Position numbers and translations under genes: made by a program. 38,684 bases of DNA from a virus. This document shows positions 22,376 through 38,684 of this stretch, one piece after another. Position 1 is the stretch's first letter; each line of letters opens with the position of its first letter. Where the stretch lies: IMG/VR virus record IMGVR_UViG_3300045286_000083, positions 1-38,684 of that record. One strand, written 5' to 3'. The notes beneath the pieces were generated by a model. It made no database searches, had not been told where the DNA came from, and was given only the letters and a program-made list of their open reading frames with translations.

Positions 22376-22680
22376 GCATCCTCGTCGACATGCCCGGAGA
22401 TGCCACTGCCCCGCGGAACCTCGTACACCAACGACTCGTGGGGGCCGAAGCGGTAGGTGAAGTCGGGGCCTGCTGACTTCAGGATCCTCTCGGCTTCTCG
22501 GGTGTACTTGTCACGGTATCCGTCGTGGGCGAGCAGCACGGTTTCGCGCAGATGCCCGACGTTGACGCTGGGTGCTTTGCAGCGGCGCAGGACGCCGGCG
22601 AGCACGAGTGCGAGTTCGCGTGCGTCGGCGAGCTCGTCGGCGAGCTGGCGTTCGCGGTCGGTGATCTTCGATCGGCGCAT
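22372..22680 (-). CDS. Hypothetical helical protein
   Basis: 102 aa from ATG 22680, overlapping the previous stop (TGATG). The first half is charged and helical (SKITDRERQLADELADAREL ... VLAGVLRRCKAPSVNVG). The second half (HLRETVLLAHDGYRDKYTRE ... VYEVPRGSG) is mixed. No known motif. It closes the early DNA-metabolism operon; its end overlaps the -35 of the late promoter. Confidence 0.65.
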   Translation of the reverse strand: MRRSKITDRERQLADELADARELALVLAGVLRRCKAPSVNVGHLRETVLLAHDGYRDKYTREAERILKSAGPDFTYRFGPHESLVYEVPRGSGISGHVDEDA

Positions 22681-23297
22681 CACGCCACGTCGCCTTTCGC
22701 TCGGCGCTGTTTCGCTTCGTTGCGTTCGGCGGCGAGGATGCGCAGGATGTGCCGTCGGTCGATGCTGCCCCCGTTGGCGACGCGGTAGTCGAGGATGCGT
22801 TTCGACGGCAGCTGGTCGTACTTGGAGCGGAACTGGGCGCACCAGTCGCACATGACGCCTTTCGGGGCCCGGGTGACGAGGTGCCCGTGGCGCAGGTGGT
22901 TGTCGCACCACACGTGGTCGTCGGGTGAGACGCGCCGGCGGACGGGCAGGACTTGGCCGTCATCGTCGAGTTCGGGCGCAGGGGTCGTCCAGCGGGCGGC
23001 GATGGATGCGGCGAGGGTGAGCTGGTGGTACGACTGCTCGAGGGCGCGCCGGTAGGTGCGCAGGTCGTGTGCGGCGCGGTCGCGGGTGATGGCGAGGCGT
23101 TCGGGTTGGGTGAGTTGCACGTCCGCGTCCGGGTCGAAACGGCGTGAGGCGGGGGTGTCGGGGTTGGCGCCGAGGACGTGAGTGGGGTAGCCGTTGCGTG
23201 CGTTCTTCATCGCCGCGACCGCTTGGATCGTGAGATCGTTCACCAGGTGGGCGTCGTGGACGATGACGGCAAGGAGACGGGCCTGCTGGGTGGTCAC
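22680..23297 (-). CDS. Hypothetical protein with zinc-binding Cys/His cluster
   Basis: 205 aa from GTG 23297, overlapping the helicase stop. A helical N-terminal half (TQQARLLAVIVHDAHLVNDL; HDLRTYRRALEQSYHQLTLA) precedes a Cys/His site (WCDNHLRHGHLVTRAPKGV, then MCDWC), a likely zinc finger, and a basic C-terminus (RRHILRILAAERNEAKQRRA). It lies right after the helicase, so DNA binding or a replication accessory role is plausible, but the family is not recognised. Confidence 0.68.
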   Translation of the reverse strand: MTTQQARLLAVIVHDAHLVNDLTIQAVAAMKNARNGYPTHVLGANPDTPASRRFDPDADVQLTQPERLAITRDRAAHDLRTYRRALEQSYHQLTLAASIAARWTTPAPELDDDGQVLPVRRRVSPDDHVWCDNHLRHGHLVTRAPKGVMCDWCAQFRSKYDQLPSKRILDYRVANGGSIDRRHILRILAAERNEAKQRRAKGDVA

Positions 23298-25162
23298 GTG
23301 GAGGGCCTTTCAGGGTTGGTGGTTCCGAACAGGAAGTCGTCGTCGAAGTCGACCGCGGGACCGCGGGACCTTGACGGCTCGTCGGGGGCAACGATTGGTG
23401 TGTCGTCGTCAACCGCGGGACCGCGGGAAACGCGGGACCGATCCCAGCCGCTGCTACCCAAAAATTCTTCTTCATTTTTCTCACCCGCGAGATGAGTAGA
23501 AGTGGTCCCGCGGTCCCGCGCTTGCAATGCATCACCGCAGGTCAGCGAGTTGACGCCGCGCGGGACCTCGCCAGGTCCCGCGGCAGGTCCCGCGGTCAGA
23601 GGGCTGTTCGCCCGTTCGGCGACGGTGAAGATGGCGACGCGACGCCGGTCGCGGGGCATCTCGACGAGGTGCAACCCGTCCGGTCCGTAGTGTCTGCCGA
23701 CCCGTTTGCGCAGCGCCATGCCGAGCCTCTTGGAGAACTGTGGGCGGTCGAATTCGCCGGCAAGCTCGTCGGGGAGGGCGTCGCGCAGCGTCATCCCGTA
23801 GTGATCGCCCATGTGCGAGATGAGCTCGGCGACGGTGACGGAGCGGTCTTGGAGGCTGCCGCTCCAGGCGGTGAGGAAGCCTTCCCATGCGCCGGCTTCG
23901 CGGTCGGCGGTGGCGTGGAAGTCGGCGAGGTTGTCGAGGAACCCGTCGATGCCGGCGTGGTGCAGGATGCCGCCGACGACACGCACCCATTGGCTGTAGC
24001 CGCCCATCGCGGGCAGCAGCTCGGCTTTGGGTTGCCCGGCGTTCCACCAGCTGCGCACGATGGTGCACAGCGCCCCGAGCAGCTGGCTGCGTTGTTCGTT
24101 GGTCCAGCGTTCGAGGTCAGGGTGGCGGAAGTTGGCGCGCAGCCACGGTTGGGCGGTGCGCGCGTCGAGACGGATGCGGTAGCAGCGTCGTGCGAGGTCG
24201 CCGCCGACGTCGATGTTGTTGCCGGTGGCTGCCCAGGTGGCACGGTTGGGGACGGTGGTGACTTCGGAACGCCCGAGGACTCGTCCTTGCCACGTGTCGG
24301 CGGTGAGGACGGCGGCGAGGGTGGCGGAGCGGATGACTCCGTCGACGTTGTCGAAAACGACGACGGTGTGCCCGGCCATCAACATCGCGGTGACCTTCTT
24401 CTCAAGTTCTTCGTCGCTGGACGGCCAGGCCATGAGGGCGGCGCCGCGGCCGGTGGTGACGATCGAGCAGGCTTTGACGAGGAGGCCTTTGCCGGTGCCG
24501 GGCTCAGGGGCGTCGATGAGCGCCATCGGAACCTGTCCGACGATGGCGCGCACGAGCGGGGTGAGCAGGAGCGCCCAGGCGTTCGCGCGGTCGGCGGTGG
24601 TGTCCCACGGGAAGTCGCAGAACAGCTCGTTGATGAGCGCGACGGCGCTCGCCAGCTGTTCGCCGGTCGGCTGGTCGGGGATCGGCGGGTACTCGGGGCC
24701 GCGGTGCCAGTGGTAGAGCTTGGTGGCCGGGTCGTAGCCGTGGCCGGTGTGGAAGGTGCCGTCGGGGCGCAGGACCGGGAGTTCGACGACGCCGGCGAGG
24801 GCGGGCATGTTCCATTTGCCGGCGGCGAGGACGCTGACGGCGACGTCGACGGGTGGCCCGGTGGCGCTGAGCCCGCCGTCCTTGAGTGCGCGCCACCAGG
24901 TGCCGGCTTGGGCGAGCAGCATGCGCACGTGTTCGGAGCGTGTGGTTTCGATGATCGGGCGAGCAAGCTCGTCTTCGCGCAGGCGTGTGAGCTGCCCGGC
25001 GCGCACGAACAGTGTCGGCGGGTCGTTGGCGTTGACGAGGGCGTCGGTGGCGTCCTGGACGACGTCGACGTGCTGGCGCCCGTTGACGATCACCTGCGGG
25101 GCGCTGGTGGGCTGCTGGTCAGTCCAGTGGTGGCCGCAGTCCAGGCATTCCAGGGCGGTCAT
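23294..25162 (-). CDS. Replicative P-loop helicase/primase-associated ATPase
   Basis: 622 aa from ATG 25162 (ATGA overlap). An N-terminal zinc-finger-like CLDCGHHW is followed by a D5-like or DUF927-like middle part and a P-loop core: Walker A APEPGTGKGL (about 218-227), Walker B VVVFDNVD (about 267-274), sensor-like ATWAATGNNID. The last ~100 residues are low-complexity and contain repeated RGPAVD and DDD motifs. It likely works with the prim-pol gene four genes upstream. The DNA encoding the tail carries nine GGTCCCGC/GCGGGACC repeats around an AT-rich patch, listed separately. Confidence 0.8.
   Translation of the reverse strand: MTALECLDCGHHWTDQQPTSAPQVIVNGRQHVDVVQDATDALVNANDPPTLFVRAGQLTRLREDELARPIIETTRSEHVRMLLAQAGTWWRALKDGGLSATGPPVDVAVSVLAAGKWNMPALAGVVELPVLRPDGTFHTGHGYDPATKLYHWHRGPEYPPIPDQPTGEQLASAVALINELFCDFPWDTTADRANAWALLLTPLVRAIVGQVPMALIDAPEPGTGKGLLVKACSIVTTGRGAALMAWPSSDEELEKKVTAMLMAGHTVVVFDNVDGVIRSATLAAVLTADTWQGRVLGRSEVTTVPNRATWAATGNNIDVGGDLARRCYRIRLDARTAQPWLRANFRHPDLERWTNEQRSQLLGALCTIVRSWWNAGQPKAELLPAMGGYSQWVRVVGGILHHAGIDGFLDNLADFHATADREAGAWEGFLTAWSGSLQDRSVTVAELISHMGDHYGMTLRDALPDELAGEFDRPQFSKRLGMALRKRVGRHYGPDGLHLVEMPRDRRRVAIFTVAERANSPLTAGPAAGPGEVPRGVNSLTCGDALQARDRGTTSTHLAGEKNEEEFLGSSGWDRSRVSRGPAVDDDTPIVAPDEPSRSRGPAVDFDDDFLFGTTNPERPST
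23355..23593. repeat. GGTCCCGC / GCGGGACC repeat cluster around an AT-rich patch: candidate replication origin
   Basis: Nine exact copies of GCGGGACC or its complement lie in 239 bp: plus orientation at 23355, 23363, 23415, 23432 and 23560, inverted at 23504, 23512, 23574 and 23586; a degenerate copy lies at 23423. Tandem pairs abut exactly at 8-bp spacing. Between the plus-oriented set and the inverted set is a T/A-rich stretch (23459-23483) unusual for this GC-rich genome. Iterated sites flanking an AT-rich segment inside a replication gene resemble the lambda ori inside gene O. Confidence 0.6.
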
Positions 25163-25908
25163 GTTGCCTCGCTGAACAGGTCGAGTGTGCTTTGCGAGAG
25201 TCGTGAGGCCGCGATCTCGCAATAGCGCTCGTCCAGTTCGATGCCGATCGCCTTGCGGCCCATCATCTTCGCGGCTACAAGAGTTGAACCGCTACCCATG
25301 AACGGGTCAAGCACTAACCCAGCTTTCGGCGCATGCCGCTCAATCATCTCCGCAAGAAGCGATACGGGCTTTTCAAACGGCAGGTGGCGCTGTGTTGGGG
25401 GCACGCGCTTGTGGCCACTAATAACCGCGCCTGTGCGCTTGCCGGCCATCTCTCGCCCTCTGCTGCGTGCGCCGTACAGGATGACTTCGTAGTCTTTCGC
25501 GTACTCGTGACGAAGGTCGCCCATGCCGCCGCCGCCCTTATTCCAGATGAGGGCATTGCGAATGGTGAAGAGGTGACAAAGATTGTCGTAGAAATCCGGC
25601 CAGCTTTCCCAGTGGCAGAACACCGCTGCGTGCATGTCCTCGTGGAAGGTGTAAGCGAGGTGGTTCAGCGCCCCGCGCACGACCCTGACCCCTTGACGGA
25701 CCCCATCGTTCTTGACGGTCTGTTTCGCTGCGGTCCAACCGCTCACGAATGCCATTCCGTAGGGGGGATCTGTCAACAGGAAATCTACGCTGTTGGGAGC
25801 TATGACATCCAGGTCGCGGCAGTCGCCGTGGTAAATCGTCACGAGCTTGTCGTGGTAGTACGGCTTCATGTCGACTCTTTCGTGTTCATGGATCCGCAGT
25901 GCGATCAT
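25159..25908 (-). CDS. DNA adenine/cytosine-N4 methyltransferase (paralogue A)
   Basis: 249 aa from ATG 25908, which overlaps the upstream stop in ATGA (an ATG at 25869 is an alternative). Motif IV DPPY is at 47-50 (VDFLLTDPPYGM) and the SAM-binding motif I is late (LVLDPFMGSGSTLVAAKMMG, about 204), i.e. a beta-class order. The opening KPYYHDKLVTIYHGDCRD and the region around the DPPY are very like the second MTase at 30003-30752. It probably modifies phage DNA against restriction. Confidence 0.88.
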   Translation of the reverse strand: MIALRIHEHERVDMKPYYHDKLVTIYHGDCRDLDVIAPNSVDFLLTDPPYGMAFVSGWTAAKQTVKNDGVRQGVRVVRGALNHLAYTFHEDMHAAVFCHWESWPDFYDNLCHLFTIRNALIWNKGGGGMGDLRHEYAKDYEVILYGARSRGREMAGKRTGAVISGHKRVPPTQRHLPFEKPVSLLAEMIERHAPKAGLVLDPFMGSGSTLVAAKMMGRKAIGIELDERYCEIAASRLSQSTLDLFSEAT

Positions 25909-26762
25909 CGGTTCAGCCGTTTCACGAGTTGGTCCCATGCTGCGCGGGCGGCTTGGGGGACGAGGCCGTTGCCGCCGAGACGGAGGGCGTCAGCCAGCCA
26001 CTCGGGAGCCCCATGAGCGACGCGACGAACTCCGGGTTCAGGTCCACCCGCGGCGACCCATCGTTCCCATCCGGCACGGTCGTCCGGTGATGGTGGGAAG
26101 CGGTAGCCCATCGGCTCACCTCGTCGCGCAGGTCGGGCGACTGCCGCGACGAATCGGCGCTGCGCGACCACATCTTCACCTGCACCGTCAGCGATGTCGC
26201 CGTGCTGCGGCCCATGCGGGCTTTCATCGCCATGTGCGCTTGGGGTGTTTTCTGGTCGTCGCGTGCTGTGGGCGTGCCCCACACACCACCAGCGGTCTCG
26301 GCGGTGAGGGGCTCCAACGGCGGCCGCAGAGAACAGACCCCATTCCGCATCGAACCCGAGGCGGGCAAGGTCATCGAGGACAGCGGGTAGTCCTGCTCGA
26401 ACAAGGCCGGGAACGTTCTCCAGGAACACGAACCGGGGTCGTACCTCACCGATGATGCGGGCAATGTCAGGCCACAACCATCGGTCGTCGTCGAGGCCGC
26501 GTCGTTGGCCGGCGATGCTGAACGGTTGGCAGGGGAAACCGGCAGTGATGAGATCCACGCGGCCGCCCCATGGGCGACCGTCGAAGGTGGTGAGGTCAGA
26601 CCAGATAGGAGCCTGATCCAGCCGCGCCTCTGCCATCCGCGCCACGAGAGTGGCCGCTGCGTAGGCATCCCGCTCAACGTGAGCCACGGTTCGGGCGACG
26701 CCGCGCAGGGCAAGCTCGAATCCTCCGTAGCCGGAGCAGAGGTGGAGGGCACGTAGTACCAC
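25905..26762 (-). CDS. DNA (cytosine-5) methyltransferase
   Basis: 285 aa from GTG 26762. Motif I LHLCSGYGGFELAL, catalytic motif IV GFPCQPFSIAGQ (C78), motif VI FVFLENVPGL, motif VIII-like APHRRDRWWCVG and a late LGGNGLVPQAARAAW (motif X) identify a C5-MTase. The variable region between VIII and IX (STRRPENTPSAHGDESPHG...) is the target-recognition part. No partner endonuclease is present, so it is an orphan MTase. Confidence 0.9.
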   Translation of the reverse strand: MVLRALHLCSGYGGFELALRGVARTVAHVERDAYAAATLVARMAEARLDQAPIWSDLTTFDGRPWGGRVDLITAGFPCQPFSIAGQRRGLDDDRWLWPDIARIIGEVRPRFVFLENVPGLVRAGLPAVLDDLARLGFDAEWGLFSAAAVGAPHRRDRWWCVGHAHSTRRPENTPSAHGDESPHGPQHGDIADGAGEDVVAQRRFVAAVARPARRGEPMGYRFPPSPDDRAGWERWVAAGGPEPGVRRVAHGAPEWLADALRLGGNGLVPQAARAAWDQLVKRLNR

Positions 26763-26763
26763 G

Positions 26764-27801
26764 TCATGACGCCTCTCTGATGTTCGTCGACCCGCAGCAC
26801 GGGCATGCGGGCACCACGGGCTCGCTGAACCGTGCCGGCCGCAGCGCACCGTTCAGTTCCTGTCGTGCCGAGCGTGCGCAGGCGCTGCGGTCGCCGCGGT
26901 GGCGTGTGGCGGCGATGTACCCGAACATCGAGTAGGACCACGAGCTGCGGTCGGCGCTGGACGCCCACGGCTGTTGCAGTTCGGGCACGGAGGTGGTGAA
27001 GACGACGAACGGGCCGTCGGGTTCGTGGAGGACGGCGCTGGTGCCGCTGCGCGGGTCTTTGCCGCTGCGTGTCCAGTGGCTGTCGTCGCCGTGCTGGTGG
27101 TGCAGGTGCCAGCCGTCGGCGTGGAGGGTGCTGTGCCAGTCGTGCTGGCGGTTGATGTGTTCGGCGATCGAGTCGTCGTTGAGCGACGCCCTGGGCGGTG
27201 GTGCCGGGTTGCCGAGCGGTGTCGGCGGTGCGGGTGGCTGCAGGGCGAGCGCGTCGATCCATGGTTGTGGCAGCCAGGCGAGTTCGTCGACACGCGGTGG
27301 GCGCCGCGACATCTCGCCGTCGGGCTGGTACCAGCGGTAACGCCCGTTGGTGTCGCGGCGTGTGGAGGGGGCGACGACGGCGAAGCGGTGGTGGCGTTGG
27401 ATGACGTCGATGCCGGCGGCGATGTTGCCGGGGAACTCGACGTTGTCAGGGATGCGGTAGAAGCTGATGCGCGACGGCTGCTGACTGCCGCGGCTGGTGC
27501 TCGACCACGTGTCGGGGAGCGTCCCGTGTTCGAGCTGGAGGGCGTGTAGTTCGTCGGCCCCGTGCTTGTCGTCGTAGTGGTCGACGTCGATGCCGATCAC
27601 CCCGACCGGCATGCGTACCCCGACGTTGGCGTGCGCGTCGGTGGCGGCCCATGAGTCGATGTCGTCGACGGTGGGATCCTTACCGTCGCGCCCGGTGAGC
27701 CCGCTGGGTGGCGGGCTTTTTTCGCCGCGTGGGAGCGGGAACGGGTGCCAGCCTGCGTCGTGGTAGGCGCGGGCGACGTCGGCAAAACCTGGGGTCGTCA
27801 T
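26764..27801 (-). CDS. Bifunctional primase/polymerase (prim-pol)-like protein
   Basis: 345 aa from ATG 27801, overlapping the MTase stop in ATGA. FADVARAYHDAGWHPFPLPRGEKSP, VGVRMPVGVIGIDVDHYDD (metal-binding D72, D74), then IDVIQRHHRFAVVAPSTR and WYQPDGE fit the prim-pol (AEP superfamily) fold. A C-terminal Cys cluster (CPCCG) probably binds zinc. It likely primes or initiates phage replication together with the helicase. Confidence 0.83.
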   Translation of the reverse strand: MTTPGFADVARAYHDAGWHPFPLPRGEKSPPPSGLTGRDGKDPTVDDIDSWAATDAHANVGVRMPVGVIGIDVDHYDDKHGADELHALQLEHGTLPDTWSSTSRGSQQPSRISFYRIPDNVEFPGNIAAGIDVIQRHHRFAVVAPSTRRDTNGRYRWYQPDGEMSRRPPRVDELAWLPQPWIDALALQPPAPPTPLGNPAPPPRASLNDDSIAEHINRQHDWHSTLHADGWHLHHQHGDDSHWTRSGKDPRSGTSAVLHEPDGPFVVFTTSVPELQQPWASSADRSSWSYSMFGYIAATRHRGDRSACARSARQELNGALRPARFSEPVVPACPCCGSTNIREAS

Positions 27802-29117
27802 GCGGTGGCCTCGTCGAACAGGGAGACCTGGCCGGGGAGTTCGGGGCGGGTGTCGAACAGGTTGCGCGCACACTCCACACGCCGCGCCGGGTAGAGGTCA
27901 CGGTTGCGGGGGTCGATGTCGATGCCGATGGCGTCGCGGCCGTGGAGGTCGGCGACGGCGAGCGTGGTGCCGGTTCCGGCGAACGGGTCGAGCACCAGCC
28001 CGGGCTGGTAGGCGTCGTGGCCGCAATCGGTCCAGTCGAGGGTGGTAGGGATCTTGGTCGCGCGGCCGTGCTTGAAGGAGGCGCCAACGCCGAGAATCGT
28101 CGAGCCCTGTGCGGCGATGGCGCGAGGCATGGCGTGTTGGCGGCCGATGTCGCCGCCGTGTGGCACGTACTCGGCCGACTCGATGCGTCGGCGGGGTTCG
28201 CCGCACTGGGCGCACACCTCGCGGGGGCACATGGACAGGATGAGGCGTTCGGCGATCTTGGCGGGCCACATCGCATAATGTGCCAACCGGCTGGGTTGGG
28301 TGGTGATCGTCCACGTGTCCGGGGTGCCGTCCCATTCGTCGAACCAACAGTCCAACGGCGGCGCACCGGCGTGCGTGGCGCGGCTGGTGGCCATCGGGTT
28401 GCCGGTCTGGCCGCTTTCGGTGTTCTTGGGTCCGTTGTCAAATGACGTTTCGCCACGCACCCACGCGTCGCCCTTGACCTTGACGGTCAGCGGTGCGTAG
28501 GCGGTGCGAACGGCGGTGAGGTCGAACCAGCGTTTCGGATGGCGGGTGGCGACAACGATCTGTGACGTGGACGGCCGGAACTTGTCGCCGAGCGCGCCGA
28601 CGCCGGGGTTGGGGCGGTGCCAGGTGATGACGTTGCGGACGAGCCACCGGCCGGCCGGTGAGGGTTGGCCGTTGAGGACGTTGCGCCCGTAGGCGAGCGA
28701 CAGGCGGTAGGCCTCGGGGACGAGTGCCAGCGACTTCGCACGCGGCCATTCGGCGGTCGGTTGGTTCTTGGCGCGCCAGTGGGCTGCGTTCGATTCGCGC
28801 ATGGTGGCGGTGCTGCCAGCGAACTGCTGCTGGCCGTCGCGAAATCCACCCGGCAGGTAGTCGCCACCGCCACCGCCACCGCCGGCGTAGGTGTCGCCGA
28901 GTTCGATGGCGATGCTGCCCCAGGGTGCAAGCACACGACCCCATTCGGCAGTCAATGCGAGCAGGGTGTCGACGAACGTGGCGGGGTCAGGTTCGCTGCC
29001 GATCTCGCGGTGCTTGTCCGGGTGGTCGGCGGGCAGGTAGGAGCGGAGCGCGACGAACGGTGGGGAGCAGGTGGCGATGATGTCGCGGGTGTCGCCGACG
29101 AGGTAGGTGACGGTCAT
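27798..29117 (-). CDS. DNA methyltransferase (N4-cytosine type likely)
   Basis: 439 aa from ATG 29117. Motif IV is ATCSPPFVALRS (SPPF near residues 18-21), the form typical of N4-cytosine MTases (TSPPY), and motif I is late (GLVLDPFAGTGTTLAVADLH, about 372-382). A glycine-rich insertion (YAGGGGGGGDYLPGG) and a Zn-like CAQCGEPRRR lie between. Order and overlap suggest co-transcription with the prim-pol gene. Confidence 0.85.
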   Translation of the reverse strand: MTVTYLVGDTRDIIATCSPPFVALRSYLPADHPDKHREIGSEPDPATFVDTLLALTAEWGRVLAPWGSIAIELGDTYAGGGGGGGDYLPGGFRDGQQQFAGSTATMRESNAAHWRAKNQPTAEWPRAKSLALVPEAYRLSLAYGRNVLNGQPSPAGRWLVRNVITWHRPNPGVGALGDKFRPSTSQIVVATRHPKRWFDLTAVRTAYAPLTVKVKGDAWVRGETSFDNGPKNTESGQTGNPMATSRATHAGAPPLDCWFDEWDGTPDTWTITTQPSRLAHYAMWPAKIAERLILSMCPREVCAQCGEPRRRIESAEYVPHGGDIGRQHAMPRAIAAQGSTILGVGASFKHGRATKIPTTLDWTDCGHDAYQPGLVLDPFAGTGTTLAVADLHGRDAIGIDIDPRNRDLYPARRVECARNLFDTRPELPGQVSLFDEATA

Positions 29118-29566
29118 GCGGTGGCCTCCCACAGTGTCCGGGCGACGCCCTCCACACCGCGATCCTCACGCGGGCGGCTCGGTGCATTCCAGCCCTTACG
29201 CGGAGGACGCTGGGCGACAACGCGCCAACCTGCCGCGCGGAGTGATGAGCCTGATTCGCCTTCCTGCGTGTAGGTGACGACGCGTCGGTAGCCCTTGGCG
29301 AACGCGGCTCGTGCGACGGCGCCATAGAGCATCGAGTTCGCGTGCGGGGTACCGTCGACGACTGAGCGGGTGACTTCCACCGTGCGACCGTCATCGAAGT
29401 GACGTGCCGATGGTCGGCCGACGATGGCGACACCGATGAGCGTTTCGCCGTCGGCCACACCGTGCGCCCACAGGTAGCCAGCAGGTCGGCGGTGGTGACG
29501 GTGCCACAGGGTGACCATTCCGCACGCGGTCTGCCAGTCGACCGGAACGAGCTGCAGGTCGCTCAT
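29114..29566 (-). CDS. XF1762-like phage protein (GNAT-like fold candidate)
   Basis: 150 aa. Motifs WHRHHRRPAGYLWAHGVADG, LIGVAIVGRPSARHFDDGRT, VTRSVVDGTPHANSMLYGAV and RRVVTYTQEGESGSSLRAAG match the XF1762 family, which is widespread in actinophages, and the layout resembles an acetyltransferase. The substrate is unknown. It is embedded among the MTases and the RusA gene, so DNA-modification or host-takeover roles are possible. Confidence 0.78.
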   Translation of the reverse strand: MSDLQLVPVDWQTACGMVTLWHRHHRRPAGYLWAHGVADGETLIGVAIVGRPSARHFDDGRTVEVTRSVVDGTPHANSMLYGAVARAAFAKGYRRVVTYTQEGESGSSLRAAGWRVVAQRPPRKGWNAPSRPREDRGVEGVARTLWEATA

Positions 29567-30006
29567 GACGTCACCTCACCGAGGATCATGATGCAGGCGC
29601 CGGTCCAGCCGGTCGTTTCGATCTTGGAGGCTGTGATGCTGACGAAGCGTGCGTCGTCGGCGATGAATGCGGCGGCGGTGAGGGCGTCGCCGACGGCGCG
29701 GACGAGCTTGTCGAGGTCGGGGGCGGTGGTCTTCCATGCCCAGCCTGCGTCGCGCGTCTTCTTGGGTCGTGAGGCGCGCATCGGGAAGCGGAACACGATG
29801 TTGAGCGACAGCGGCCCGTCGTGCGGGGTGTCGGGGGCGTGCTGGCGTGCGGTTTCGCTGACCGCGTTGCGCCATTGGGCGAAACCTGCCCCGCCGGATG
29901 GCTTGACGCGTGCCTTTCCGCCGACGCTGAACGCTTTCATCGACCCTTGTGGCATGGGGATGCCGATGACGTCGAACTTGACGAGGATCTCAGCCGCGGC
30001 AGTCAT
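29563..30006 (-). CDS. rusA: RusA-family Holliday junction resolvase
   Basis: 147 aa. GIPMPQGSMKAFSVGGKARV at the start, KKTRDAGWAWKTTAPDLDKL (acidic pair in APDLDKLVRAVGDAL) and FIADDARFVSITASK (second acidic pair) are RusA hallmarks. The enzyme resolves branched DNA during recombination or before packaging. It lies between two methyltransferase-type genes, overlapping both by 4 nt. Confidence 0.88.
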   Translation of the reverse strand: MTAAAEILVKFDVIGIPMPQGSMKAFSVGGKARVKPSGGAGFAQWRNAVSETARQHAPDTPHDGPLSLNIVFRFPMRASRPKKTRDAGWAWKTTAPDLDKLVRAVGDALTAAAFIADDARFVSITASKIETTGWTGACIMILGEVTS

Positions 30007-30752
30007 CCGGCCACCTCAGACGATCCGAGGTCGAGGACTTCCTGCGCCAACCGGTTAGCGGCCATCTCGCAATACCGCTCCTCGGCTTCAATGCCGACAG
30101 CACGGAAACCGGCATCTTTCGCGGCACGCAGCGTTGTTCCACTCCCAGCGAACGGATCGACGATCAACGCTCCGAGGGGCAAAGCGGAGATCGAAATTAG
30201 GCGCGCTAACAGTTTCACTGGCTTCTCGGCAGGATGTCCCGAGACCTTGTCGGAGCCGACCTTCGATTGCAGCACGTCAGGGATTCCACGGTCAGGGACG
30301 CTGTATGCCTGCTGGCACATGAGAGCGATCATCTCGTAGGACGGCCTCAACCCCTGGGGGCCGCCCTGACCGAGCCGCTGTTTGTCCCATACGGCGCACG
30401 ATGTGATCGGCAGCTGTGCGTCCAGTGCGGCGCGCATGACAACCGGCAGTGAGCGCCAGTTGCAGAATGTCCAGAACACTCCCGATGAACGCAGGATGCG
30501 GTCAACCTCGCGATACCAGCTAGCGAACCAAAGAGCGCTGTTCATCATGTCCTGCCACCCGCCCGCCTTACTTGCCATGTTGCCAGCACTAACCGCACCG
30601 ATGCCGTAGGGCGGGTCAGTGATAACGGCATCAACCGAACCGGCACGCAGGGTGGGCAGGATGTCCAACGCGTCGCCGTGGTAGATCGTCACGGCGTCGT
30701 CTTGGTAGTAGGGCCTCGCGTCCGCGACATGGTTCTGATGGTCAGGGGACAT
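30003..30752 (-). CDS. DNA adenine/cytosine-N4 methyltransferase (paralogue B)
   Basis: 249 aa from ATG 30752, with GGAGG 6 nt upstream; a TTG one codon earlier is less likely. RPYYQDDAVTIYHGDALDIL and VDAVITDPPYGIGAVSAGNM (DPPY at 46-49) and a late VDPFAGSGTTLRAAKDAG give a beta-class MTase. It resembles the MTase at 25159-25908 along its length, both 249 aa, so the two are probably paralogues with different target parts. Confidence 0.88.
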   Translation of the reverse strand: MSPDHQNHVADARPYYQDDAVTIYHGDALDILPTLRAGSVDAVITDPPYGIGAVSAGNMASKAGGWQDMMNSALWFASWYREVDRILRSSGVFWTFCNWRSLPVVMRAALDAQLPITSCAVWDKQRLGQGGPQGLRPSYEMIALMCQQAYSVPDRGIPDVLQSKVGSDKVSGHPAEKPVKLLARLISISALPLGALIVDPFAGSGTTLRAAKDAGFRAVGIEAEERYCEMAANRLAQEVLDLGSSEVAG

Positions 30753-30780
30753 CAACCACCTCCCAGGACGAGCACTTCAT
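30742..30780 (-). CDS. Possible 12-aa bridging peptide
   Basis: ATG AAG TGC ... CCC TGA encodes MKCSSWEVVDVP. Its ATG overlaps the WhiB stop (ATGA) and its own stop lies 8 nt inside the next MTase gene. It has no good independent ribosome site. It may couple translation of the MTase to WhiB; chance is equally possible. Confidence 0.25.
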   Translation of the reverse strand: MKCSSWEVVDVP

Positions 30781-33966: not shown

Positions 33967-35349
33967 TCAGGTGGCACGCTGGAGCGCGCGGTAGACGGTC
34001 GGGTCGATGTTGAACTGCCATGCCGCGGCGTCGACCGCTGTCGTGCAGTCGACGGGCACGGTTTCGGCGAAGGTGCGGCGGCGGCCGTCACGGTCACGGG
34101 AAGCGTTCTGCATCACCAGCAACCGCACTCGAATCGAGCCGCGGTAGCCGCGTGGGATGTCGTACAGCGCGAGCTGATGGCCGGGGTTGCCGGGATCGTC
34201 GGCCATGTCGACGGGTTCAGCGTGCAACGCTTCGAGGAACTCGGCCCAACCGAACGCTTCGATCGCACACCGGCGGATCTCGGTGTTCTTCTCGGCACCG
34301 ATGTGTTCCAACGTCGGATGGAGCGCCCATTCGGGCACGCGGGTGCCGTGCCATGCGTAGATGGCTTCGCCGGTCGGCCATACCCACGCGGGCCCGGTTG
34401 GGCAGTGCAGTTGACGGTTGTTGTCGAACTCGACCGCGACGTGTGGGCCGAGTCCGATCACAATCCCGCGAAGGGGAATGGTGAACGTAGGGACGCAGAA
34501 CGTCTGGTAGGCGGTCAGTGTGGCCACGAGATCGGCGGGCGCGGGCTGGATGCCGGTGAGCGTGTTGATGGTGAGCCAGTGGGTTTGCCACGCCTGTCGC
34601 CACCCCGACCAGTGCAGGCCGTTGAGCTGGTCGCCGAGCTGGTCGCCGAGCTGGTCGCTGAGCTGGGCGTTGAGCTGGCCGCCGAGCTGGCCGCCGAGCT
34701 GGGCGCCGAGCTGGGCGCTGAGCTGGGCGCTGAGCTGGCCGCCGAGCTGGCCGTAGAGCTGGCCGCTGAGCTGGACGCTGAGCTGGGCGCCGAGCTGGCC
34801 GCCGAGCTGGCCGTAGAGCTGGGCGCTGAGCTGGTCGTCGAGCTGGGCGCCGAGCTGGCCGCCGAGTTGGCCGTAGAGCTGATCGCTGAGCTGGCCGCTG
34901 AGCTGGCCGTCGAGCTGGCCGTAGAGCTGGCCGTAGAGCTGGTCGTCGAGCTGGGCGCCGAGCTGGGCGCCGAGCTGGGCGCTGAGCTGGGCGTCGAGCC
35001 GGCCGTAGAGCCGGCGGAGTTGGTCGTAGAGCTGGCCGCTGAGCTGGCCGCTGAGCTGGAAGCCGAGCTGGCCGCCGAGGCCGCCGAGCTGGCTGCCGAG
35101 CTGGCCGCCGAGTTGGCCGTCGATGCTGCTGCGCAGCATGGCCGACCAGAGCAGCGCCACGAGAGGCGACGGCGCGACCACAACCGCAGGAGCAGGCTCG
35201 TTGATCGCCGCGTAGCAGACCGCTGCGGCTTGCTTGAACTCGTCGAACGGTACTCCAGTGACCGTGACGCGTCGGATGGTGGCGTCGCGTGCTTCGGCGA
35301 CGCGCGCCCAGTCGTCGGGCGGGATGGACGTGAGCCGTGCGGCGGTCAT
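33967..35349 (-). CDS. DUF6745-like protein with about 40 QLxx tetrapeptide repeats
   Basis: 460 aa from ATG 35349 (ATGA overlap with the previous stop). A short N-terminal helix region (ARLTSIPPDDWARVAEARDA) leads to a long tetrapeptide array: QLGG, QLGA, QLSD, QLYG and so on, roughly 40 units (about residues 76-243). The C-terminal ~200 residues (FCVPTFTIPLRGIVIGLG; PTGPAWVWPTGEAIYAWHGT; VRLLVMQNASRDRDG; DAAAWQFNIDPTVYRALQ) resemble DUF6745. The array would form a Leu/Gln solenoid or helix. No function is known. Confidence 0.75.
   Translation of the reverse strand: MTAARLTSIPPDDWARVAEARDATIRRVTVTGVPFDEFKQAAAVCYAAINEPAPAVVVAPSPLVALLWSAMLRSSIDGQLGGQLGSQLGGLGGQLGFQLSGQLSGQLYDQLRRLYGRLDAQLSAQLGAQLGAQLDDQLYGQLYGQLDGQLSGQLSDQLYGQLGGQLGAQLDDQLSAQLYGQLGGQLGAQLSVQLSGQLYGQLGGQLSAQLSAQLGAQLGGQLGGQLNAQLSDQLGDQLGDQLNGLHWSGWRQAWQTHWLTINTLTGIQPAPADLVATLTAYQTFCVPTFTIPLRGIVIGLGPHVAVEFDNNRQLHCPTGPAWVWPTGEAIYAWHGTRVPEWALHPTLEHIGAEKNTEIRRCAIEAFGWAEFLEALHAEPVDMADDPGNPGHQLALYDIPRGYRGSIRVRLLVMQNASRDRDGRRRTFAETVPVDCTTAVDAAAWQFNIDPTVYRALQRAT
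34621..35125 (-). repeat. 12-bp tandem repeat encoding QLxx units
   Basis: A GAGCTGG-type 12-bp period recurs about 40 times on the plus strand, giving QLxx on the minus strand. The third and fourth residues vary (GG, GA, SA, SD, YG, DD). The units are interrupted by LGG and RRLYGRL. The period also keeps a long antisense frame open, which explains the spurious plus-strand ORF. Confidence 0.85.
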
Positions 35350-35924
35350 CCGCGGCCGCCCCAGGGTCGGTAGCAGCTGCGGCCGGCAGTGCGCCAGTAG
35401 GTGCACAGGGCTGCGGCGGCACGGATGTTTTGCGTGATGTCCTGCAACGACCAGCGGTCCACCCTTTCGCCAAGCGACTTGCGGAGGTACTGGTAGGTGA
35501 TGCTGTTGACCTGGAGCGCGCCGGAGTCGATCGAGCCGTTCCGGTTGTGGTGGATGGCGGTGGGGGTGCAGCGGGATTCGCGCCACATGAGGCGGGACAT
35601 GCGCACCACCGACCAGCCGCCCTTCGGCGCCAACTGAGCCAGGAGGGGTTCGTATTGGGTGCAGCGGCCGGTGATCGTGGTGTGGAGTGCGGTGGCCGTG
35701 GCGGAGGCCGAGTTGTACGGCCGGGCGGGGGATGCCGTGTCGGCGTTGAGGTGGGAAGCCGTGGACTGTTGCACCTCTCCCCCGCCTGTTTCCGTCACGG
35801 CCACCGCGACCGGTTGCCAGTTGGCGTTATCGCTGGCGATCGCGTCATCCATCCGACGGCCACCAACATGCGCACTCACCAACAGAAACGCGACCATCGC
35901 CAACTTCCCAAGATGACGCGTCAT
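35346..35924 (-). CDS. Secreted SLT-like muramidase candidate (early)
   Basis: 192 aa from ATG 35924. Residues 1-21 form a signal peptide (RHLGKLAMVAFLLVSAHVGG). The domain core (VVRMSRLMWRESRCTPTAIH, with candidate catalytic E116; SIDSGALQVNSITYQYL; the helical ALCTYWRTAGRSC) resembles lysozyme/SLT transglycosylases. Two or more Cys pairs suggest secretion. It lies in the early region, far from the lysis cassette, so it may act on the wall after infection rather than at lysis. Confidence 0.75.
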   Translation of the reverse strand: MTRHLGKLAMVAFLLVSAHVGGRRMDDAIASDNANWQPVAVAVTETGGGEVQQSTASHLNADTASPARPYNSASATATALHTTITGRCTQYEPLLAQLAPKGGWSVVRMSRLMWRESRCTPTAIHHNRNGSIDSGALQVNSITYQYLRKSLGERVDRWSLQDITQNIRAAAALCTYWRTAGRSCYRPWGGRG

Positions 35925-37491: not shown

Positions 37492-38684
37492 TCAGACGCG
37501 CCCGAGGGCACGCTTGCGGTAGGTGATGGTCGTCAACGGGCCTTGCGGGTAGGTGATGACCTCGCCGAGCGACGTCGGTGCCGGCGGTGGCGGTGGCACC
37601 GGGGTGATGTACGGGGCGATCCCCCAACGTGGCACCGGGTGTCGGGCGACGCTGACCCGTCGTGGTCGTCCTCGGCCGGCGGTCGCCGGGGCGAAGATGA
37701 CCACCGGCGGCGGTCCAGCGGCGGCGCTGTAGCCGAACAGGATGCGCGTCCCGCGTCGCCCGAGGATCGGGCTGCGACGGTCGGCAACCCTCGGCGGCGG
37801 CACCCACACCAGCGGTCGGTACCCGAGGCGTATCGTCGGCGCGACACGCCGGGCGACGACCGGGGTGGGGCGGCGGTGCAGGAAGGTCGCCGCCATCGGC
37901 TGCTGACCGGTGAGGACCGGTTGCCGGCGCGTGCACGGGCGTCCCCGAGCAACCCACGACGGCACATCGGCACGCAGGAACGGCGGCGCCCAAATGACCG
38001 CCGGCGCCGACACGGAACCGGGGATCGGGGGATCGTTGCGACGGTGCGGGATCTGGCCGTAGCGGCGCACCTGCGGGCGCAGGGTGAGCACCGGGGGCGC
38101 CCACTGGACGACCGGTAGGCCGGCGGGGAGTGCGACGGCGATGCGACGCGGCGGGATCCGGCGCAACGGCTGCGGCAGCTGGCGTTGCGTGATCGTCGCC
38201 GGGGCGATGACGGCCGGGATGACCGTCGGGGCGACGTAGATGACCTGCTGACGTCGAGGCGGCAGCCGACGTGCCGGTGCGGGCTGCGGCAGCTGGCGTT
38301 GCGTGATCGTCGCCGGGGCGATGACGGCCGGGATGACCGTCGGGGCGACGTAGATGACCTGCTGACGTCGAGGCGGCAGCCGACGTGCCGGTGCGGGCAG
38401 CGCAGGACGCTGGGTGCGCACCGGGAACGCCCAGCGGATGTTCTGCAGCCCGGGCGGTAGGGCGACGGCGATGCGACGCGGCGGAACACGCTTCGGGGGC
38501 GCCGGCAGCGGTGGGCGTTGCGTCCTGACCGGGAACGCCCAGCGGATGTTCTGCAGCCCGGGCGGTAGGGCGACGGCGATGCGACGCGGCGGAACACGCT
38601 TCGGCGGTGCGGGCAACGGTGGCCGCTGGGTGCGCACCGGGAACGCCCACATGATGTTCTGGCGTCCGGGCGGTAGTGCGACCG
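37492..38684 (-). CDS. LamG-like / Pro-Arg repeat structural protein, 3' part
   Basis: This is the C-terminal part of the junction-spanning gene. Bases 38558-38684 repeat bases 1-127. The sequence is almost entirely degenerate Pro/Arg-rich repeats: 36-aa units with PPRRIAVALPPG and WAFPVRTQRP, then two 38-aa units with PPRRQQVIYVAPTVIPAVIA, then more divergent WAPP-type units. The tail ends TITYRKRALGRV and a TGA, about 6 nt before a strong terminator hairpin. The composition is very basic, with few acidic residues. Similar Pro/Arg repeats next to a LamG domain suggest an extended fibre or a nucleic-acid or wall-binding appendage, but I know of no assigned function. Because the contig ends lie inside the repeat array, the repeat copy number may be wrong. 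Confidence 0.75.
   Translation of the reverse strand, partial: VALPPGRQNIMWAFPVRTQRPPLPAPPKRVPPRRIAVALPPGLQNIRWAFPVRTQRPPLPAPPKRVPPRRIAVALPPGLQNIRWAFPVRTQRPALPAPARRLPPRRQQVIYVAPTVIPAVIAPATITQRQLPQPAPARRLPPRRQQVIYVAPTVIPAVIAPATITQRQLPQPLRRIPPRRIAVALPAGLPVVQWAPPVLTLRPQVRRYGQIPHRRNDPPIPGSVSAPAVIWAPPFLRADVPSWVARGRPCTRRQPVLTGQQPMAATFLHRRPTPVVARRVAPTIRLGYRPLVWVPPPRVADRRSPILGRRGTRILFGYSAAAGPPPVVIFAPATAGRGRPRRVSVARHPVPRWGIAPYITPVPPPPPAPTSLGEVITYPQGPLTTITYRKRALGRV
38168..38395 (-). repeat. 114-bp (38-aa) tandem duplication
   Basis: The sequence starting GGCTGCGGCAGCTGGCG at 38168 recurs at 38282, and the following roughly 114 bp are nearly identical. It encodes two copies of a unit holding RRLPPRRQQVIYVAPTVIPA and ITQRQLPQP. 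The period is a whole number of codons, so the reading frame is kept. Confidence 0.85.
38400..38684 (-). repeat. 108-bp (36-aa) tandem coding repeats, continuing into 1-240
   Basis: The phrase CGGGCGGTAG (or a close variant) recurs at 38451, 38559, 38667 (same as 110) and 218, a period of exactly 108 bp or 36 codons. The unit encodes PPG-QNI-WAFPVRTQRP followed by LPAP-KR-PPRR. About four well-conserved units are seen across the contig join. Near-identity between units suggests recent expansion. Confidence 0.85.
38558..38684. repeat. Right copy of the 127-bp terminal overlap
   Basis: Identical to bases 1-127; see the left copy. It marks the contig closure rather than a biological terminal repeat, although a true short terminal redundancy cannot be excluded from sequence alone. 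Confidence 0.9.

Follow-up and report, generated by a model that had tools for sequence, protein, structure and literature searches.

The 3' end of the helicase gene in this viral DNA very probably holds an iteron replication origin (23355-23593), which the helicase would bind by its C-terminal winged helix, with melting of an AT-rich centre and priming by the Prim-Pol of the phage. The window referred to below is the whole stretch of DNA that was analysed, a 38,684-bp IMG/VR virus record. The array stands out by its position, by its statistics, by a layout that is conserved among relatives although the 8-mer itself changes, and by covariation of the 8-mer with a predicted winged helix. The design as such is known from the origins of the SaPI/PICI elements and of the Streptomyces plasmid pWTY27. 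Different here is the location of the proposed origin inside the reading frame of the helicase, in a phage that has its own terminase, portal, protease, tape measure, endolysin and tail genes; the wider family may have been recognised earlier, in that the literature search covered largely papers available outside subscription. The record may be a fragment of a genome, and the reading as an origin draws on sequence, on predicted structure and on published work with a homologue.

The iteron array

The word GCGGGACC occurs nine times in the window, counting either strand, and all nine exact copies lie within 23355-23593 (Table 1), with none elsewhere in the record. Their total is ordinary (9 against 5.5 expected, with 11% of shuffles reaching 9), but their clustering is extraordinary. 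When the whole record was simulated 20 times with an order-5 Markov model, no 8-mer had more than 4 copies per 240 bp, and when the codons of the helicase ORF were shuffled synonymously 2000 times, GCGGGACC reached at most 4 copies and mostly had 0. On the + strand, four + copies are found left of an AT-rich patch (24% GC over 25 bp, in surroundings of 67-69% GC), and four - copies together with one + copy right of it. The third iteron is directly followed by a copy with two mismatches (GCGGGAAA at 23423-23430). The copy of odd sense in the right arm has counterparts in the relative L009 and in pWTY27.

Relative to the helicase stop, the array extends from -300 to -61 and is thus inside the ORF. 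The iterons are found in codon phases 0, 1 and 2 and on both strands, and the nine copies encode AGPA, AGPG, ARDR, RGTT, EVPR, RSRV, GPAV, RSRG and GPAV. Since all codon phases and many tetrapeptides are involved, the array is a feature of the DNA and not of the peptide. The original prediction had described nine exact copies of one 8-mer in 239 bp, two exactly abutting pairs, plus copies mainly to one side of an AT-rich patch and inverted ones to the other, and a density beyond chance. Exact search confirms the coordinates, the count, both pairs (23355/23363 and 23504/23512) and the orientations; the patch is real, and the simulations and codon shuffles agree with the claim of non-random clustering. 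Two observations had been named that would speak against it, namely an equal density of the 8-mer elsewhere and repeats conserved only as codons for RGPAVD. Neither was made: copies are restricted to the array, and they occupy three phases, while relatives change both word and peptide and keep place and layout.

Table 1. Positions of the helicase gene, its neighbours and the elements of the array in the window
Feature	Position	Strand	Basis
Gene following the helicase; GTG start overlaps helicase stop (GTGA)	22680..23297	-	sequence
D5-type SF3/AAA+ replication helicase (Rep), 642 aa, start codon uncertain	23294..25222	-	homology, fold match
Disordered C-terminal coding tail, residues 543-642, pLDDT <50, holds whole array	23297..23596	-	AlphaFold2
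Iteron 1, GCGGGACC	23355..23362	+	exact word count
Iteron 2, abutting iteron 1	23363..23370	+	exact word count
Iteron 3	23415..23422	+	exact word count
Iteron 4	23432..23439	+	exact word count
AT-rich centre between the two iteron arms, presumed unwinding element	23460..23484	.	24% GC
Iteron 5	23504..23511	-	exact word count
Iteron 6, abutting iteron 5	23512..23519	-	exact word count
TGACCTGC box, spacer between inner and outer iterons	23537..23544	-	top non-iteron word in related origins
Iteron 7, sole opposite-sense copy in its arm	23560..23567	+	exact word count
Iteron 8	23574..23581	-	exact word count
Iteron 9	23586..23593	-	exact word count
Predicted winged-helix domain, residues 441-540, presumed iteron reader	23603..23902	-	AlphaFold2, covariation
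Prim-Pol, PF09250 (E 4.7e-23), helicase partner, separate gene	26764..27873	-	profile match

One other 8-mer cluster of comparable density exists in the window, at 34.6-35.0 kb, and it stems from a coding (peptide) repeat. The ORF concerned (33967-35586, - strand) repeats short peptide units, GQLGA/GQLSA among them, over a long stretch, which explains the local 8-mer density. Long near-identical peptide repeats are also found in the ORF at 37492-38652 (- strand), at the right end of the record. The sign of the GC skew is unchanged at 23.4 kb, which neither helps nor hurts the origin reading. For DnaA boxes, the whole window has two with one mismatch, neither of them near the array, and a DnaA-dependent origin was rejected on this ground.

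The helicase and its neighbours

The helicase ORF matches phage families that are annotated as DNA polymerase/primase or as of unknown function, and no Pfam or NCBIfam model was found for it. When solved structures were searched by sequence, the only matches were design proteins (short repeats or P-loops), so that a fold search was needed. The AlphaFold2 model (66 sequences, mean pLDDT 83.5) has an ordered core, a winged helix and a disordered tail. Its best match among solved folds is the primase-helicase of SaPI5 (7ola, Z 14.8, rmsd 5.5, 321 residues aligned), and further matches are vaccinia D5, its mpox homologue, and the helicase regions of the NrS-1 and ASFV PrimPols. Modelled alone, the winged helix has a pLDDT of 91.6; its matches are weak (Z 4.4-5.8), on a list made up mostly of winged-helix DNA-binding domains, and Foldseek gave nothing below E 0.1 for it. 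The origin-binding domain of P4 alpha is absent from the structural match lists, which excludes nothing.

The gene just downstream of the helicase matched no PHROGs family. Its start overlaps the helicase stop, and therefore the disordered coding tail is apparently translated, as the overlap suggests. Prim-Pol and helicase are fused in the relative L009 and separate in the window. The region at 25159-30755, around these two genes, also contains four DNA methyltransferase genes (three of the N6/N4 type, one of the C5 type), two of which stand between the Prim-Pol and the helicase that L009 has fused.

Related loci

The closest comparison comes from relatives whose helicase is 66% identical. These have nine copies of GCGGGGCT in the same place, in nearly the same order and at nearly the same spacing: read in the sense of the helicase, the layout is ++-++[AT]---- in the window and +-++[AT]----- in the relatives, with spacings of 48/46 and 52/52 bp. 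The two words differ at two positions, and they do so in all nine copies. An exact DnaA box (TTATCCACA, L009 5608-5616) is present in the array centre of these relatives; the window has none there. Arrays in the coding tail are also found in L045 (GCGGGACT) and L042 (CGCGAGT, five copies). Three close relatives with a helicase about 61% identical (L039-L041) have no array near the helicase, in L039 not even when one mismatch is allowed, and their origin must be elsewhere or degenerate. Between L053 and L033 substitutions avoid all nine iterons, in small numbers. That the array is unchanged from L009 to L010 was considered as a sign of purifying selection, a reading that was dropped, as these loci are identical until a downstream indel and hence uninformative.

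For a wider survey, 175 loci were picked by helicase sequence alone, blind to repeats. (A contig search with the single helicase protein gave no matches, and an alignment query succeeded.) The densest 8-mer cluster is at the 3' end of the helicase gene in 125 of the 175 loci and elsewhere in 8; after 90% redundancy reduction, 82 of 118 loci have a cluster at the 3' end. About a quarter of the surveyed loci have no clear array, and several loci below the threshold carry shorter or variant ones. The arms show a dyad symmetry of 0.67, against 0.48 in shuffles, and the array centre is richer in AT than the locus in 73 of 76 cases. Among 83 non-redundant loci the array is noncoding in 59, partly coding in 15 and wholly coding in 9. 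The iteron words of other lineages include TGCGGGGA, TGCGGAGA, GCGGGGTT, CCGGGTTT, GTGGGTTT and TGCAGGGA, and an archaeal virus assigned to Methanosarcinales has TGCGGGTA. The word thus varies by lineage while its placement at the 3' end of the helicase is constant, and the array in the window is one case of an architecture that recurs in phages and plasmids, in integrated actinobacterial elements and in an archaeal virus.

Comparison with known systems

The original prediction had likened the array to the origin of phage lambda, in which iterons beside an AT-rich stretch are found inside gene O. This general resemblance, of iterons beside an AT-rich stretch in a replication gene, holds. However, lambda O, which loads the DnaB of the host, has no relationship to the helicase in the window, and the lambda origin is in the middle of its gene, whereas the array is at the 3' end; SaPI/PICI and pWTY27 are the closer match.

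In pWTY27 a homologous helicase (RepA, 32% identity over residues 14-535, 81% of the query) is likewise accompanied by a Prim-Pol (RepB). Its 8-bp iterons, GTGGGAAC, also form two inverted sets at the 3' end of the helicase gene, in a symmetric layout (++-++/--+--) over about 230 bp. The inner pairs are 72 bp apart, exactly as in the window, and TGACCTGC is present in the spacers of pWTY27 too. RepA binds the array in gel shifts, with a footprint on a 105-bp inverted repeat within it that may depend on the long inverted repeat instead of on single iterons (PMC3583192). To replicate in S. lividans, the plasmid needs a 300-bp fragment that contains the array, and replication is bidirectional (PMC3583192). 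In contrast to the array in the coding tail of a tailed phage, that of pWTY27 lies in noncoding plasmid DNA, 52-283 bp past the stop; nor does pWTY27 have the two DNA methyltransferase genes between Prim-Pol and helicase.

The SaPI/PICI elements (PMC6092414, PMC7581432) share with the window a D5-type Rep helicase, an origin at the 3' end of rep and lineage-specific iterons. SaPI Rep uses its C-terminal domain to read iterons that follow directly on the rep gene (PMC7581432), and the helicase in the window, as a D5-type SF3 protein matching 7ola, has a predicted C-terminal DNA-binding domain as well. The SaPI/PICI origin is outside the rep gene, however, and its carrier is a satellite without structural genes. 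Because the array in the window is inside the ORF and the phage has structural genes, the proposed origin would work like those of SaPI/PICI but is a variant and not a member of that class.

Two other systems are more distant. P4 alpha is a helicase whose C-terminal winged helix binds origin repeats (ori/crr, discussed in PMC4234260), but it has a fused TOPRIM primase of the bacterial type, whereas the window has a separate archaeo-eukaryotic Prim-Pol. In pRN1 (PMC4234260), orf904 likewise combines Prim-Pol, SF3 helicase and winged helix, with an origin just 3' of the replication gene; that origin is a 100-nt stem-loop without iterons, in contrast to the nine iterons found here.

The reader of the iterons and alternative explanations

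Over the 83 non-redundant loci, the correlation between iteron-profile similarity and domain identity is 0.50 for the winged helix, 0.43 for the ATPase and 0.38 for the N-terminal part. The partial correlation of the winged helix, controlling for the other domains, is 0.27 (a value reached in 0 of 300 permutations), and that of the ATPase given the winged helix is 0.03. In sliding windows the correlation is highest at residues 495-554, where the recognition helix and wing are predicted. A Mantel-type test separates covariation from shared ancestry only partly, and the covariation is therefore strong support, short of proof, for the winged helix as the iteron reader. The original prediction had proposed binding by the phage initiator in general terms. 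This is now narrowed to the helicase and its own C-terminal winged helix, which we infer to be the binding partner in this phage from the footprints of the pWTY27 homologue and from the covariation.

A different reader would leave the array an origin. Prim-Pol instead of the helicase might recognise the iterons, as template start sites, in the way that the NrS-1 PrimPol begins synthesis at an 8-nt motif that it recognises (TTTGGTTA; PMC8718748); priming by CCPol-MP also maps to the iteron of the SCCmec origin (PMC7581432), and a Prim-Pol gene is upstream in the window. We consider this very improbable, as pWTY27 RepA, the helicase homologue, binds its array alone, the covariation peaks in the winged helix of the helicase, and duplex inverted arrays fit a loader that binds dsDNA. 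In addition, GCGGGACC contains neither TTTGGTTA nor the GTG core used by the PrimPols of pRN1 and NrS-1, although the same reader with a different motif is conceivable.

Clusters of short inverted or direct repeats are also typical of operators and centromeres, and the array could be of this operator or partition type, bound by another phage protein and present in the helicase gene by accident. Against such an accident, which we hold to be highly improbable, the array goes with the helicase family in phages and plasmids as well as in mobile elements and an archaeal virus, despite otherwise differing gene content, and its word tracks a domain of the helicase itself; the lack of a PHROGs match for the downstream gene also argues against it. 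If it were a hairpin that terminates or attenuates transcription where an operon segment ends, the array would account for the stability of its single-strand fold (-77 against -56 kcal/mol in shuffles, DNA parameters). This is extremely improbable: the fold is a consequence of the inverted iterons, the stop of the ORF overlaps the start of the next gene, so that a terminator within this ORF would cut its own operon, and both the distinct 8-mer of each lineage and the covariation with a DNA-binding domain would be left unexplained. That selection on a repeated peptide (RGPAV etc.) generated the word has practically no probability left, in spite of the two occurrences each of GPAV and RSR, the location entirely within an ORF and the dense 8-mers that a peptide repeat does yield in the gene at 34-35 kb, and is refuted by the codon phases, strands and many peptides, by the synonymous shuffles and by the relatives with noncoding arrays.

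Proposed mechanism

In the proposed origin, copies of the D5-type helicase would bind the nine 8-bp iterons via the C-terminal winged helix; each of the two inverted arms would probably hold one set of helicase copies, the two sets facing in opposite directions. The bound helicase would melt the AT-rich centre and load as hexamers, in two rings, and the phage Prim-Pol would prime both exposed strands, leading to bidirectional replication. Melting, ring loading and priming are carried over here from SaPI, P4 and D5 systems. The origin would reside inside the helicase reading frame, in a disordered tail that tolerates any peptide dictated by the iterons. The coding overlap would then place a replication origin within a translated but disordered protein tail, with the same bases encoding this tail and providing initiator binding sites.

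A constant box and the wider family

After masking of the iterons, the most over-represented word in the 83 origin spans is CAGGTCA/TGACCTG, found in 31 of 83 loci against 3.6 expected; CCGCAGGTCA is found in 12 loci against 0.4 expected. The box TGACCTGC/GCAGGTCA accompanies at least eight different iteron words, usually in the spacer between inner and outer iterons, and is also present in the origin spans of L019, L020, L021, L062, L084, L087, L174 and others. Enrichment is also seen for another word outside the iterons, GCTGAAAC(A), which occurs in 17 of 83 origins, against 0.2 expected. Five more copies of TGACCTGC exist elsewhere in the window, and a single copy is therefore not diagnostic. 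TGACCTGC and GCTGAAAC are candidate sites for a second factor, or may have a fixed structural role.

A single design might underlie all of these loci, which we put forward tentatively, as a serious possibility that falls just short of being the expected one. The winged helix of a D5-type helicase would read a lineage-specific 8-bp word at the 3' end of its own gene, and a conserved second factor would read the fixed TGACCTGC box. Tailed phages and theta plasmids would share this design with integrated actinobacterial elements and with at least one archaeal virus, and the origin would have been absorbed into the helicase frame in some lineages, the one in the window included. All copies of the word would change in concert, and the reading domain with them, so that cross-recognition between related replicons could be avoided.

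Replication origins are known for a minority of sequenced phages, and the array suggests a rule for finding a broad class of them: where a D5-type helicase gene has a Prim-Pol gene beside it, its 3' end is searched for 5-14 copies of one 8-mer. One scheme would then cover uncultured phages together with the SaPI/PICI origins and a plasmid origin known from footprints, and the recognition code of the winged helix could be learned from the roughly 80 natural pairings of a reading domain with its iteron word. Within the family, the polarity of the arms can be flipped. In L130 and L140-L192 (Micromonospora, Actinomadura and related genomes) the - copies are on the left and the + copies on the right, the reverse of the window, L019, L033 and pWTY27, and the overall symmetry is alike.
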